Assembly (NCBI GenBank): GCA_002011165.2
Contig: MTMI02000003.1
Span: forward strand, 124,001 to 188,000
Direction of reading: 5' to 3'
Length of the DNA: 64,000 nt
Source: Candidatus Mnemosynella biddleae
Lineage (GTDB): Archaea; Halobacteriota; Archaeoglobi; Mnemosynellales; Mnemosynellaceae
The position numbers and the translations under genes were made by a program. Under the pieces are notes generated by a model. That model did not search any database. It saw nothing but the letters and a program-made list of their open reading frames with translations, and was not told where the DNA came from. Position 1 is the first letter of the stretch; each line of letters opens with the position of its first letter. Positions 1,435 through 6,109 of this stretch are shown one piece after another.

Positions 1435-4401
1435 TCACTCCTTTCTCTGGCGAAGCACCAGATATGCAACTGCGAGGAGTCCAACAATTGCGAAGACTGC
1501 CTCGAAGCCAGGCTGTTTTGGCGTTGGTGTTGGTGTCGTCGGAGCTGGTGTAGTCGCAGTTGGCTTAACCTCTTCCTTAACTGTTAGAGTCTTACTGACT
1601 CCATCGACATCAATCGTGTAGGTTCCTGCCTGAGTCTTCGTTATCTCGAAGGTCAGTGTTGTGGACTCTCCTGGAGCGAGAGTGACTTCTTCCTGCATCG
1701 TTGCAACGCCGTTCACGGAGAGTGTGATCGTCTTGGTTCCCTCGGCAACTCCGAGGTTCTTGACTACTGCAGTCACGGTTGCAGTCTCGCCAACCTTCAC
1801 AGATGCTGGTGAGACGTCCACAGACATTACCTGAATGTCCGCAACTGCTGGCTTGAGTTCAATTGTAACCTGATCAATGACGTCATCGGATGCATTCACG
1901 GAGGAGCTCTTGCCTGCCCAGCTGCTCCACTTATAGACAGCTTTGATAGTATATTCGCCTGCTGCTCTACCAGAAGTCTTCCAAGTCTTCTCGAATGCTC
2001 CGTCGGCTACAGTCGCAGTAAGCTCCTGATCATAGTTACCGTCTGCAGAGGTTATGTATATGTAAATCTTTGTACCATCCTCTTTGTTTGTCGTTCCTTT
2101 GATTACGATATCATCACCGATTGCGAATGCCTTTCCATCCTCTGGAGATGTGAGCTCAAGCGTTGGACTCACAACGGTTATTTCATCAGTAACCTTGTTT
2201 CCAGTGCTCTTATCGAGTAGTTCAAATGTATATGTTCCCGCTGCGAGATGGAGGATCTTCGTCTCGTCGGAGTTCAACTTATCGTAAGCCGAGGTGACCC
2301 ACTTGCCTTTATCTCCTCCCTCGAAGTACGTCTTACTATCTTTTGTGACGGTATTCCACTCAACCTTGTACCATCCTGCATAATCTCCTGAGGTCTCCTT
2401 TGTGCTCTTTGAAGTACCAGTTACCGTAAGTGTCGGAATATTGTTACCGGAAATCTTCAGTGAAACTGCACTGCTAGCCACCTGTGTATATGCCTCAACA
2501 GTTGCTTTCTCTCCAGATACAACCGAGTCTTGGACAACGAGAACCATGCTCTGCTCAGTTAGTTCGATCGTGGTTATGTCGTAAATATTGCTAAATTCAA
2601 CACCACCAGTGACATTCCACCCCACAACTTTTATTGTGTAAGTGTCCTCAAAGTATCCTGAGGTATTCCACTTTAGTGTCGCTTCTTTGTCATCTACAGT
2701 AGCACTTGCCTTATACTCATCATTTACATATAGTTTTACCACGGCGCCATCTGGTTGATCGTACCAAACTTTGATTTCAATTGTCTTACCTATTACACCT
2801 ACAGTCGGAGCATCAACAATTCTGATCTCTGGGTCTACAAGCTTTACAGTTACTTTGTCCTCAGGGTTACCATAGCCTATCAACTTCGCAGTAATTTCGT
2901 AAGTGTCTTCCTTGTCTTTTACTCCAGCAACATTAGTATCCCACTTATATGAGAACTTTCCGTCTGCATCCGTGTAAACTGGAACTGTCTCATTCCAAGA
3001 TGTACTCTTGCTCTTAATTGTAATATTAACTTGTGCACCTGCTCCGATATTTGGAGTAATAGAACCTGTAATCTCAACTTTGTTATTGTATGCCACTTCA
3101 CTTGGTGCAGAGACCGTAACGGTTGGCTTCTTTGCCTCAGTCTCAACTGTCACAGTCTTCTTAAGTGCGCTATATCCTGGATCCTGCACAATTGTAATCT
3201 TGTATGTATCTTCAACTGGCAGCGAGACACTCTCAAGTTTCCACGTTCCATCGCTCTTTACAGAGACTTGCTTGTTATCATATCCTGAAACTATAGTGCC
3301 ATTGCTATATTTTATTGTCACATTGATTTTTGTGTTCTCCTCTCTGTTAGAGGTACCCGTTATATCAAAAGACTTACTTACTACAACTTCACTTGGAACG
3401 TTCACAGTTACTTCTGGTGAGACGACCTCAACATAAGCGGTCTGGGACTTGCTTCCTACCTCTACTTTAATCTTGTAAACTCCTGTGAGTGTAACACCAG
3501 ATGGGAAGTCATAAGCGAGACTATTACTCTGATTCTGATTACCTGCACGCCACTTAAATTCGAAAATTCCATTGCTCTGAACTGTAGTCGCAGGATTATA
3601 TATAACTGTTCCAACAGGACCAGTAATAGTAATCTTTACGTTTGCACCGTATTCAGTTGAGCTTCCCCTTATTGTCAGCTTGTTTCCAAGCACCACAGTT
3701 GCAGGAACATTGATGCTGAGTTCAGCCTCAACGACGGTAAAGGTCTTCGTAAGCTTTGTACCAACTTTGTCCTTCACTTCGAGTGTGTAGGTCCCAGTAC
3801 CCAAATCACTCAATTTTCTACCCTGATCATCTGCAAGAACTGAATATCCAATCCCAGTAGTCGTATTAACACTGGTGGCATAGAATTTCACTATTCCGTT
3901 GGAGTCAAGAACCTTCACATATTCTACTCCTGCATTCGAGGTACCATTTATGTATACCGTATGACCTTCTACGAAGCTGCTAACATCAGTTTTACCTGTA
4001 TCGACATCATTAAGCTTTGCTGTGAGAACTGGCTCCGAGACGGAGACAACCTTACTGGCAAGTGTAGCAGTACTATTTGTAACGTTAACTCTATACTCGC
4101 CAGATTTGGTTATGACATCCTTAGTGGGTACTTCTAAAGTTGTAACACCAGAGCCGGGATCCCCCTGATACAATATAACTACTTGACCCTCAGCATCACC
4201 AGAAATTCCAACTGCTTTGACTGTTATACTCTCGTTAGTTCCAGAAAGACTAATGTAAATTTTCTGACCCATCACTATTGTATCATTTTGAATTGTTGCA
4301 CTAGTGTAAGCACTCGCCGGAATCACCGCAAGCCCTGCGAACACTGACAACACCATTATTGTTGCCATCACTATTGAGAGAATTTTTTTACTTCCTTCCA
4401 T
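1435..4401 (-). CDS. S-layer-like surface protein with tandem Ig-like domains, CARDB domain and PGF-CTERM anchor
   Basis: A 988-residue exported protein. Residues 1-31 are a Sec signal peptide ending AVIPASA. Then come about eight beta-sandwich repeats of roughly 90-120 residues, each opening with a pattern like TVTVSAPSEV or EVTVNVPSEV and closing on VTVE/VVSP. A CARDB-like domain follows at about 855-945 (SVKVGETATVTAVVKNLG). A Thr/Pro linker (TTPAPTTPTPTP) leads to PGFEAVFAIVGLLAVAYLVL plus a basic tail: this is PGF-CTERM, the signal for archaeosortase cleavage and lipid attachment. Many N-x-S/T sequons suggest glycosylation. Size, repeats and a strong promoter fit a main cell-envelope protein. 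Start is ATG with GGAGGAGG nine bases upstream. Confidence 0.85.
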   Translation of the reverse strand: MEGSKKILSIVMATIMVLSVFAGLAVIPASAYTSATIQNDTIVMGQKIYISLSGTNESITVKAVGISGDAEGQVVILYQGDPGSGVTTLEVPTKDVITKSGEYRVNVTNSTATLASKVVSVSEPVLTAKLNDVDTGKTDVSSFVEGHTVYINGTSNAGVEYVKVLDSNGIVKFYATSVNTTTGIGYSVLADDQGRKLSDLGTGTYTLEVKDKVGTKLTKTFTVVEAELSINVPATVVLGNKLTIRGSSTEYGANVKITITGPVGTVIYNPATTVQSNGIFEFKWRAGNQNQSNSLAYDFPSGVTLTGVYKIKVEVGSKSQTAYVEVVSPEVTVNVPSEVVVSKSFDITGTSNREENTKINVTIKYSNGTIVSGYDNKQVSVKSDGTWKLESVSLPVEDTYKITIVQDPGYSALKKTVTVETEAKKPTVTVSAPSEVAYNNKVEITGSITPNIGAGAQVNITIKSKSTSWNETVPVYTDADGKFSYKWDTNVAGVKDKEDTYEITAKLIGYGNPEDKVTVKLVDPEIRIVDAPTVGVIGKTIEIKVWYDQPDGAVVKLYVNDEYKASATVDDKEATLKWNTSGYFEDTYTIKVVGWNVTGGVEFSNIYDITTIELTEQSMVLVVQDSVVSGEKATVEAYTQVASSAVSLKISGNNIPTLTVTGTSKSTKETSGDYAGWYKVEWNTVTKDSKTYFEGGDKGKWVTSAYDKLNSDETKILHLAAGTYTFELLDKSTGNKVTDEITVVSPTLELTSPEDGKAFAIGDDIVIKGTTNKEDGTKIYIYITSADGNYDQELTATVADGAFEKTWKTSGRAAGEYTIKAVYKWSSWAGKSSSVNASDDVIDQVTIELKPAVADIQVMSVDVSPASVKVGETATVTAVVKNLGVAEGTKTITLSVNGVATMQEEVTLAPGESTTLTFEITKTQAGTYTIDVDGVSKTLTVKEEVKPTATTPAPTTPTPTPKQPGFEAVFAIVGLLAVAYLVLRQRKE

Positions 4402-4428
4402 ACTTTATCTTCCTCCTCCTTTTAGAGG

Positions 4429-4515
4429 GGTTCTTACCCAAGGTGACGGGCTTCATATTATTAAACCCTTCCTTCACTCATCCGAAGTTTTGACATCTCT
4501 GCTAACCCGTCACCT
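4429..4515 (-). promoter_or_regulatory. Structured 5' leader of the S-layer gene
   Basis: AGGTGACGGG at 4441-4450 and CCCGTCACCT at 4506-4515 form a perfect 10-bp inverted repeat with a 55-base loop. The distal arm falls at the expected transcription start, about 25 bases below the TATA box, so the mRNA 5' end would be closed into the stem. A second small hairpin (GGGT-AAGA-ACCC, 4429-4440) lies just before the ribosome binding site. The leader is about 115 bases, long for an archaeon. It may protect the mRNA or regulate translation. Confidence 0.6.
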
Positions 4516-4539
4516 CTTACCTTAATTATAATTAATCGC

Positions 4540-4550
4540 TATTTAAAACC
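4540..4550 (-). promoter_or_regulatory. Promoter (BRE/TATA) of the S-layer gene
   Basis: Read on the minus strand the site is GGTTTTAAATA preceded by AAAAA, an excellent archaeal TATA box with a purine-rich BRE side. It predicts transcription starting near 4515-4520. Confidence 0.65.
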
Positions 4551-4694
4551 TTTTTGGTTAGAAAGGTGAATCGAGAAGGAACAAAAAAGAGTAATCGAGC
4601 CTTTCAAAACTCCGTGAAGTTTACTACGACGATCGTCGAATGATATTAATGTCTGAATTTTTAAACTTTTTCCAACACACCGCGAAAAATTCAA

Positions 4695-5036
4695 TCAGAG
4701 AGATGATACAGGGATCATCGGGGAATATAACTTCTTGAGCTTCGAGAGTTTCCTTCTATTCAAAAGGTGAACGTTTACTCTGAGGTCATCCGTAAGTCTG
4801 AAGATCACATCCCTGTACCACTCGAACGTGAATTTTTCGGGAATCTCCTCTGAGACAATGAGTATATCGAGATCCGAAGATAGGGTATGCTCCCCTCTGG
4901 CATAACTTCCAGTAATATAAACTTCGGCATCTTCAAAAATTTCTTTAGCTTTTTTCTCAATCTCTTTTGCGATATCATTAATTCGGGAGAAAAATTCCTT
5001 ATTTTTCTCCAATTTTCTGTAGTAGTATTCAATCAC
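4695..5036 (-). CDS. MNT-type nucleotidyltransferase (HEPN/MNT pair)
   Basis: The minimal nucleotidyltransferase signature GSYARG followed by SSDLDILI gives the G-S and D-x-D metal-binding core of the pol-beta superfamily. It lies directly after a HEPN gene, the usual HEPN/MNT toxin-antitoxin layout, in which the MNT partner adenylylates the HEPN protein. The frame extends further upstream inside the HEPN gene. I chose GTG at 5036 because GGAGG (5046-5050) is nine bases before it and the overlap with HEPN is only eight bases; GTG at 5042 is the alternative. About 113 residues, usual for the family. Confidence 0.75.
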   Translation of the reverse strand: MIEYYYRKLEKNKEFFSRINDIAKEIEKKAKEIFEDAEVYITGSYARGEHTLSSDLDILIVSEEIPEKFTFEWYRDVIFRLTDDLRVNVHLLNRRKLSKLKKLYSPMIPVSSL

Positions 5037-5385
5037 TCCCACAAACCTCCATGAGCTTTTTCGCAACTTCAAGAGCTTTTCCTGCAGTCTCCTTAGAATA
5101 ATCCACATCGAAATATCGAGACGCAACATAAGAGAGCTCGATATCTCTCAGGATATCGTTATTTTTCTCTCGAAAACTTATCAACTCTTCATCTCCTGTA
5201 AGTTCAAAAAGTAGTTTTAATCCATGAGACCTAGGGAAATCTCCATATTTCTTGGATATCAAATATTTAAGTATGAGTTGGATCGCTTGTTCTACAAAAA
5301 ACATCGTGAAATTATAATCTCCTTCCTCATAACTTTCCTCTGCCTTTTTATAGAACTTTAAAGCATTTTTCTTCAGAAACTCCAT
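5029..5385 (-). CDS. HEPN-domain protein (HEPN/MNT pair)
   Basis: 118 residues, all helical, of the COG2250-like HEPN group: EEGDYNFTMFFVEQAIQLIL is the first helix pair and FPRSHGLKLLFEL the Arg-x-His-bearing turn. HEPN proteins of such pairs can be RNases or simply substrate-binding partners of the MNT enzyme. The two-residue R-S-H spacing is shorter than the R-x4-6-H motif of active RNases, so nuclease activity is doubtful. The start is ATG with no clear ribosome binding site; an AT-rich TATA-like stretch lies about 20-35 bases upstream, so the mRNA may be nearly leaderless. Confidence 0.75.
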   Translation of the reverse strand: MEFLKKNALKFYKKAEESYEEGDYNFTMFFVEQAIQLILKYLISKKYGDFPRSHGLKLLFELTGDEELISFREKNNDILRDIELSYVASRYFDVDYSKETAGKALEVAKKLMEVCGSD

Positions 5386-5511
5386 GATTTCTGATGTGTT
5401 TATATGTATCTATAAAATTTTCCTCCCTCATACGATTTTCGAGCTGAGATGTATATCTGAAGTTCCGCTGACGTGTCCTAGAATCTAAGGTCTCAAAAGC
5501 TTAAAAAGTTT

Positions 5512-5874
5512 TCAGAACTCAACTATCTCGAGAAAATCAACTCTCTTGAAATCCTCGTCGAAGGTTGCAATTCTTCTGATTCCAAGATGTTTACAAGTTG
5601 ATACTATCAGAGCATCGTTGGTGAGGAGAGAATACTTGCTGAGGACTTCTAGAAAATCCTCAAGCGGAAGGTATTCAATGACTTCTATTTCTAACTCTTC
5701 TAAAATTTTTCTCAGTTTTTCTGCGATATCTTGATTTGAAATTTTTGTCAACTTCCTTAGAATAAACGCTGTCTCCTCTATAACGCTCATCGAAGTAACA
5801 AAATCAAAATCTATGTAGCTTTCAATGACTTTTTTGGTTCTCTCAGACAACTGTGTTTCGACAATTATCGACAA
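5512..5874 (-). pseudogene. PIN-domain (VapC-type) toxin, N-terminus disrupted
   Basis: The 120-residue frame keeps most of a PIN nuclease: SMSVIEE (second acid), LLTNDALIVSTC (third) and IATFDEDF (fourth). The first-strand D-T-N motif is missing. If a 10-bp tandem copy at 5858-5877 and one base of the A4 run (plus strand T4, 5892-5895) are removed, the minus strand reads [20 protein letters not shown] in frame with the rest, a textbook PIN start. Restored length would be about 131 residues, usual for VapC. No normal start codon precedes the restored motif, so there may be a further lesion. It partners the DUF104 antitoxin upstream. A shortened active protein is unlikely without the first Asp. 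Confidence 0.7.
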
Positions 5875-6019
5875 TTAAGCTAATAAGAAAATTTTGTGTC
5901 AAAGAATATCCTCTGTCATCAACTCTGAGTCTGACCTTCTCACCATCTCTGAGTTCGACCTTCTCAAGAGGTTTAAAAACTCCGTTCTCGTAAATTGCTT
6001 CTATTATTTTTGGCATCAT
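5843..6019 (-). CDS. DUF104 (AF2212-like) antitoxin, C-terminus frameshifted
   Basis: A 58-residue frame starting ATGATG at 6019. It begins [20 protein letters not shown] and continues [12 protein letters not shown], the standard beta-hairpin signature of DUF104/AF2212-like antitoxins, which pair with PIN toxins in thermophilic archaea. After RGYSL the tail ([18 protein letters not shown]) looks out of family and overlaps the toxin reading frame. Deleting one A from the run at 5892-5895 would end it at RGYSLTQIFLLA. So both the antitoxin tail and the toxin head seem altered by the same small indels. Confidence 0.7.
5858..5877. repeat. Perfect 10-bp tandem duplication that breaks the PIN gene
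   Basis: TCGACAATTA occurs twice head to tail (5858-5867 and 5868-5877). Ten bases is not a multiple of three, so the copy shifts the toxin frame; removing one copy restores the reading [13 protein letters not shown]. Confidence 0.85.
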
Positions 6020-6109
6020 TCTTAATTTTTCACTTAATTTTTCATCTGGGATTAGATAAGGATTTCGTTTAGAGTTATCTGAGAAAAGAAATGATTATTA
6101 AGAGAGGAG

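Follow-up and report, generated by a model that had tools for sequence, protein, structure and literature searches.

The nearest functional parallel to the element described here is the slpA gene of Lactobacillus acidophilus, which encodes an S-layer protein, is served by two promoters and has a large stem-loop in its P-1 leader (PMC6482533, in excerpt). Among archaeal S-layer genes, slmA1 of Methanosarcina (MA0829, Mbar_A1758) has a leader of 154-159 nt, with 5' ends mapped 159 and 154 nt before the ATG, and this leader is conserved and carries potential secondary structures, its role being called unknown in excerpts of that report (PMC3361143). Long leaders are also common in Methanolobus psychrophilus, with ~51% of 5' UTRs exceeding 50 nt (PMC5378194, in part), and in Thermococcus kodakarensis, with ~20% of mRNAs carrying a 5' UTR of 50-300 nt (PMC4247193, in part); a first-pass annotation of the DNA studied here, which called leaders of this length rare in archaea, was thus overstated. 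In bacteria, a 5'-terminal stem-loop counteracts mRNA decay, and aCPSF2 is a 5'-to-3' exoribonuclease acting in Sulfolobus (both from parts of PMC3792030). How the most abundant archaeal mRNAs are stabilized and controlled is poorly known, and a literature search, chiefly of freely accessible papers, yielded no paper on an S-layer leader of Archaeoglobi.

We have analyzed the leader of an S-layer-like gene within a 64,000-nt stretch (the window) of Candidatus Mnemosynella biddleae (genome G000). The leader appears to begin with a hairpin that recurs, at a fixed distance from the promoter, before surface-protein genes across its heat-loving class, the Archaeoglobi, and we surmise that it may act as a stabilizing stem-loop at the 5' end of the mRNA.

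Anatomy of the leader in the window

Comparison within the genus relied on G001, Candidatus Mnemosynella bozhongmuii MAG-16 (class Archaeoglobi), the sole same-genus genome compared, for which Ca. M. biddleae (JdFR-21) is named as sister species (PMC9635834, in part). The features of the locus, in order of transcription, are as follows.

4539..4559, minus strand: BRE and TATA box of promoter P1, AACCAAAAAGGTTTTAAATAG; 21 of 21 bases identical in both G001 copies
4516..4521, minus strand: predicted transcription start zone, 22-27 nt from the TATA centre by the usual spacing rule
4506..4515, minus strand: 5' arm, AGGTGACGGG; from sequence, fold and comparison with G001
4494..4505, minus strand: conserved start of the loop, TTAGCAGAGATG; 11 of 12 bases identical in G001
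4472..4487, minus strand: small inner loop hairpin, predicted from the fold only
4441..4450, minus strand: 3' arm, CCCGTCACCT; from sequence, fold and comparison with G001
4412..4430, minus strand: weak hairpin CCCCUCU-AAAA-GGAGGAGG, including the Shine-Dalgarno sequence; from the fold, with a related hairpin predicted in G001
1435..4401, minus strand: S-layer-like gene, an open reading frame of 988 aa with a signal peptide (by eye), a PGF-CTERM anchor, and CARDB and Ig-like matches

The first-pass annotation had described a leader flanked by two 10-nt arms, and both arms were found where it had placed them (on the plus strand, AGGTGACGGG reads at 4441-4450 and CCCGTCACCT at 4506-4515); in the leader of the gene at 4401-1435 (minus) they pair perfectly over 10 bp and enclose a loop of 55 nt. 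The BRE/TATA element reads AAAAAGGTTTTAAATAG at 4555-4539 of the minus strand, and the usual spacing from the TATA centre to +1 is 22-27 nt. The annotation's view that the distal arm coincides with +1 holds within error, in that the arm starts 1-6 nt after the predicted +1 (4521-4516), a start predicted from the TATA spacing only. The second hairpin that it saw at the ribosome binding site does include the Shine-Dalgarno sequence (4430-4412) but is weak, with a predicted energy of -8.7 kcal/mol at 37 C and -3.5 at 65 C.

The 120-nt leader has a predicted fold of -34.8 kcal/mol (z -3.4; 0/200 shuffles as stable), with -10.3 kcal/mol for the main stem at 65 C, and the exact 10-mer of the arms occurs at three places in the window's own genome, two of which are these arms. 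When the upstream 250 nt were dinucleotide-shuffled, 73 of 3,000 sequences also contained a perfect inverted repeat of at least 10 bp; such a repeat is therefore not very rare by chance, and the case for the stem in the window rests on comparison.

The 988-aa protein matches the S-layer model NF041431 at 27.7 bits, far below the cut-off of 600, and we regard it as S-layer-like, with a putative role in the S-layer. Profiles A4 and A5, which represent S-layer-like proteins of Archaeoglobaceae, had no match in G000 or G001 at 1e-20; the window gene would thus be tied to the Archaeoglobaceae genes by leader architecture and by its membership among PGF-CTERM surface proteins, rather than by demonstrated orthology. 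Adjoining the S-layer gene are HEPN and nucleotidyltransferase (MNT) genes followed by a PIN-domain gene (window 4695-5874), which are likely toxin-antitoxin genes.

Several other candidate functions were discarded. The window and G001 loops share the position of an ATG, but the frames that it opens, read by hand, run to 11, 4 and 19 codons, and a single substitution that distinguishes the two G001 copies abolishes the stop, which is not the behavior of a conserved leader peptide. An attenuator or terminator was dismissed as the stem is not immediately followed by a run of U in the sequences read, and a riboswitch as there is no fixed ligand-binding core or Rfam family and both the loop size and the inner helices differ between genera. 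Searches against Rfam gave no match at the gathering cut-off in 12 loci, some of them lacking the leader, and positions 4100-5100 of the window drew three matches, all far below cut-off.

The leader in the congener

Two G001 loci, C67 and C150, share with the window the promoter element (21/21 bases), both arms (20/20 bases), a loop of 55 nt and a distance of 44 nt from the start of the promoter element to the arm. The loop itself has diverged, with only 22 and 24 of its last 38 bases matching the window, and a different hairpin is predicted in the part that corresponds to 4472..4487. The perfect stem continues unbroken for 17 bp in C67 and 15 bp in C150, extending to the predicted start. At the third copy, C137, the promoter, the 5' arm and most of the loop are gone while a remnant of the 3' arm and the region of the ribosome binding site are kept, and the 61 nt before the start codon fold no better than shuffles (z 0.25). 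The C137 gene shares the signal peptide and N-terminal domain, and its C-terminal part looks cohesin/dockerin-like by eye.

The C67 and C150 copies also share a 319-bp block (5767-6085 in both L040 and L042) comprising promoter, leader and signal peptide at 98.4% identity, with differing flanks and differing mature proteins; gene conversion, a shared expression cassette or a mixture of strains in the MAG could each account for it. A 16S rRNA gene was not found in G000 or G001.

The strong matches of an RNA model (R1) were all leaders of the genus (three full, the C137 remnant and two on the opposite strand); weak matches elsewhere, at E 0.0014 to 0.1 and unsorted, include one at the start of the L143 gene (G024:C18:52-124). 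Part of the conserved loop start, CGGGTTAGC, recurs in leaders of genus g10.

Distribution across the Archaeoglobi

S-layer-like homologs were located by two profiles, each matching 48 of the 59 genomes of the class, and leaders in Archaeoglobaceae were found through protein homology and reading of the upstream DNA. In a first, loose set of 16 PGF-CTERM loci, six had the motif and nine did not, and L063 ended short of it. Upstream DNA was read at 38 loci outside the genus (30 + 8): the hairpin leader is complete at 29, reduced to its 5' arm at one (L110) and absent from five (L034, L091, L093, L106, L112), and the remaining three (L086, L107, L113) ran into a contig end or had no start to read from. 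A pattern search contributed six more leaders (L127, L135, L136, L139, L143, L144), giving 38 hairpin leaders, three of them from Mnemosynella, in 12 of the 16 Archaeoglobi genera examined.

The order of elements is constant. An A-rich stretch and TATA box are followed by the hairpin and then by the ribosome binding site and the ATG; Archaeoglobaceae have another TATA-type box between hairpin and ribosome binding site. The distance from the TATA centre to the arm is 23-29 nt in all 33 leaders measured, L110 included, and the 5' arm reads GGTGRCGG in 34 of 38, differing in L094, L095, L096 and L105. The space between the arms ranges from 5 nt to over 50, with varying inner helices, and the predicted leader length from P1 is 80-172 nt across the 38 hairpin leaders.

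The pattern TTAAATA-N20-28-GGTGRCGG, which would miss shorter or changed versions of the element, occurs at 35 places in the 59 class genomes vs. 2 for the control. At 33 of these, a hairpin leader precedes a gene whose product has a signal-peptide-like start; the other two are the ribosome binding site of a lipoprotein-like gene that has no hairpin (G052) and a place with no fitting gene (G040). Outside the class, the same pattern was found at 14 places in 240 genomes sampled from the phylum, with 15 for the control. To judge from these counts, the element looks like an Archaeoglobi feature tied to surface-protein genes. Matches of a 17-mer in viral contigs (L043, L044) were set aside, with no matching second arm in the stretch inspected.

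Individual loci depart from the common layout. In L110 (G003) the leader is reduced and the 5' arm stands directly before the ribosome binding site, where a 4-bp CAGC/GCTG hairpin is possible by eye, and in G004 two copies of the hairpin leader (L144 and L131) lie ~5.8 kb apart, each before a similar signal peptide start.

After the hairpin, 42-62 nt before the ATG, a second TATA-type box (mostly TTTATATA) is present in all 35 Archaeoglobaceae hairpin leaders (e.g., L066, L060, L092, L102); it was not found in any of the three Mnemosynella leaders, the window's included. We consider it likely that the Archaeoglobaceae leaders contain tandem promoters, P1 and P2.

Pairing, covariation and strand

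We counted base pairs in two ways, neither of which yields independent observations, given that the leaders are related. In a strand-blind alignment of the inverted repeats of 33 leaders (L110 is included, adding only two pairs, and in four, L060, L072, L087 and L088, the best repeat is an inner helix and not the stem base), there were 25 G.U, 0 A.C, 15 other and 378 Watson-Crick pairs. A count anchored at the stem base in 38 leaders, from which L110 is excluded for want of a 3' arm, gave 53 G.U, 0 A.C, 22 other and 448 Watson-Crick pairs; here the hairpin ends were picked using predicted folds, which favors G.U, and the GGC repeat of L066 and L143 permits a second register, whereas the strand-blind count is free of the former choice. 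The anchored G.U pairs represent 30 distinct genus-position events, and composition alone would produce 1.85 G.U to 1 A.C. The 25 G.U against 0 A.C point to RNA on the mRNA strand, and this bias is our strongest argument for RNA character.

Paired substitutions in relatives, which the first-pass annotation had proposed as a check, were supported, with the arms covarying among the leaders and both arms kept in the congener. Pair 5, for instance, is never mismatched in the 37 leaders where it is reached, 13 having A-U and 24 having G-C. In alignment A7, which like A6 excludes L061 (its hairpin is that of L084) and in which genus g1 is out of register by two to three columns on either side, 93.4% of cells are paired vs. 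89.6 in shuffles (0/500) and 17 cells changed on both sides vs. 5.2 +/- 1.8 (0/500). Two other measures in A7 did not beat the shuffles, namely how many pairs had changed on both sides (5 vs. 3.4; 67/500) and how many further pair types occurred (11 vs. 11.4; 392/500). Slides of three columns still pair 73-81% due to the GGC repeat, and the covariation of A7 slid by -3 columns was 0.225 vs. 0.227 in register.

The predicted fold of the leader is stronger in sense than in antisense in 38/38; the z-scores favor sense in only 22/38 and so do not separate the strands, one leader having z -0.2, and L100 folds better in antisense on the hairpin region alone. The hairpin is predicted to be stable in 38/38 at 65 C, with energies between -2.0 and -26.4 kcal/mol, and in 37 at 80 C; two g15 leaders have stems of only 5 and 7 bp, at 0 and -1.9 kcal/mol at 80 C. 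Taken together with the pair counts, we take this as a functional hairpin in an mRNA-sense RNA.

Discussion

Our preferred reading, to which we assign a probability of roughly 0.5, is that the feature is a 5'-terminal stabilizing stem-loop of an S-layer-like mRNA, akin to that proposed for Lactobacillus slpA. In this scheme: 1) transcription from P1 would begin a few nucleotides short of the 5' arm, as predicted from the TATA box; 2) the RNA would fold back almost at its first base, with little or no single-stranded 5' tail; 3) nucleases that depend on the 5' end (aRNase J or other beta-CASP enzymes), or proteins that read it, would have no landing site; 4) the message, probably needed in very large amounts, would live longer; 5) the ribosome would bind downstream of the hairpin, unblocked. 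The position relative to the TATA box, the pairing, the conservation and the sense-strand RNA character are the part of this explanation that the sequences support. Of the two functions offered by the first-pass annotation, shielding the mRNA from 5' decay seems to fit the anatomy best. As the loop and inner helices vary while the stem near the predicted 5' end stays constant, a block at the 5' end is likelier than a ligand-binding RNA, and an aptamer is unlikely.

Both Mnemosynella genomes encode RNase J (TIGR00649, E 1e-20; in G000 as an intact 443-aa frame, L164, at G000:C9:137200-138540), which was found in only one of 55 Archaeoglobaceae, as a weak match below the cut-off, and in neither of two genomes of a third family; this nuclease therefore cannot be the common reason for the hairpin. 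Also counting against a stabilizer are that a stem serving only as a block would not call for so constant a GGTGRCGG, that P2 could yield mRNA without the hairpin in Archaeoglobaceae, that the two g15 stems are short and weak, and that the element is missing from five of the 38 loci read, reduced in L110 and lost from C137.

The presence of P2 can nevertheless be accommodated in an extended version of the stabilizer reading. With two conserved tandem promoters, P1 would give mRNA with a 5' hairpin and P2 mRNA without it, and the choice of promoter would set the mRNA lifetime, amounting to a dual-speed supply of the coat; the layout would have arisen also in Lactobacillus slpA, and Mnemosynella would have kept the hairpin-capped form only. 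We offer this as a speculative and rather doubtful proposal. Alternatively, the mRNA of Archaeoglobaceae may come mainly from P2, with P1 and the hairpin making a separate short RNA or controlling P2, and with Mnemosynella having turned them into a leader. The distribution of the P2-type box (35/35 in Archaeoglobaceae, 0/3 found in Mnemosynella) is consistent with this idea, but the sequences read have no U run directly after the hairpin and Mnemosynella keeps P1 and hairpin without the box between, making it unlikely in our view.

The conserved 5' arm could also be explained by an RNA-binding protein that recognizes the GGTGRCGG helix and sets the translation or decay of the S-layer message, whether autogenously or as a global regulator. 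The arm sequence is conserved beyond the needs of pairing alone, and its initial GG, often unpaired in predicted folds, is largely retained. Nonetheless, no conserved loop or bulge was noticed, and the interior ranges in length from 5 nt to over 50; we consider such a protein improbable. A translation switch, in which the leader would refold or melt with temperature or a signal and thereby expose or hide the ribosome binding site, was the other function that the first-pass annotation had put forward, and it is poorly supported. In its favor, the Shine-Dalgarno sequence of the window and of G001 is covered by a hairpin, albeit a weak one; no equivalent was noticed by eye in the Archaeoglobaceae leaders, and the main stem is predicted to be stable at 65 C and lies apart from the ribosome binding site. 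We regard a switch as quite improbable. Finally, a DNA-level operator, with the inverted repeat binding a regulator or forming a cruciform, would suit the location at the predicted start site and the conserved 5' arm sequence, but with 25 G.U vs. 0 A.C, widely varying arm spacing and a 3' arm that tracks the 5' arm by compensation, we hold it to be very improbable.

How does the Archaeoglobi leader compare with known systems? In the Methanosarcina slmA1 system, a long structured leader precedes an S-layer gene, and the same can be said of the Archaeoglobi leaders, with predicted starts and a putative S-layer role; the two differ in that the promoter-arm pattern of Archaeoglobi falls to control level outside the class. 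Upstream regions of 19 genes with S-layer domains, drawn from Methanosarcinaceae and a second family, showed no shared motif by eye; 14 of them gave a start, and slmA1 itself was not recognized among them. Two Methanosarcinaceae S-layer-domain genes (L145, L146) have an inverted repeat, GGGAGTA/TACTCCC, across the upstream region, ending just before the ribosome binding site (by eye). The E. coli ompA mRNA, an abundant message for an envelope protein, reportedly (Emory et al., 1992) has a hairpin near its 5' end that acts against RNase E, and in Archaeoglobi the hairpin stands at a constant spacing from the TATA box, close to a predicted 5' end. As a covarying hairpin at a fixed promoter distance in 12 of 16 genera, the Archaeoglobi element offers a compact target for deletion, mutation and restoration in Archaeoglobaceae that can be cultured. 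The slpA gene of L. acidophilus is likened to this element by layout, with no homology implied, and differs in belonging to a bacterium, in encoding a different protein and in that only P-1 is said to be used, at least in excerpts of the report (PMC6482533). By analogy, this likeness suggests that bacteria and archaea may have independently reached a similar design for S-layer genes, with two promoters and a hairpin leader.
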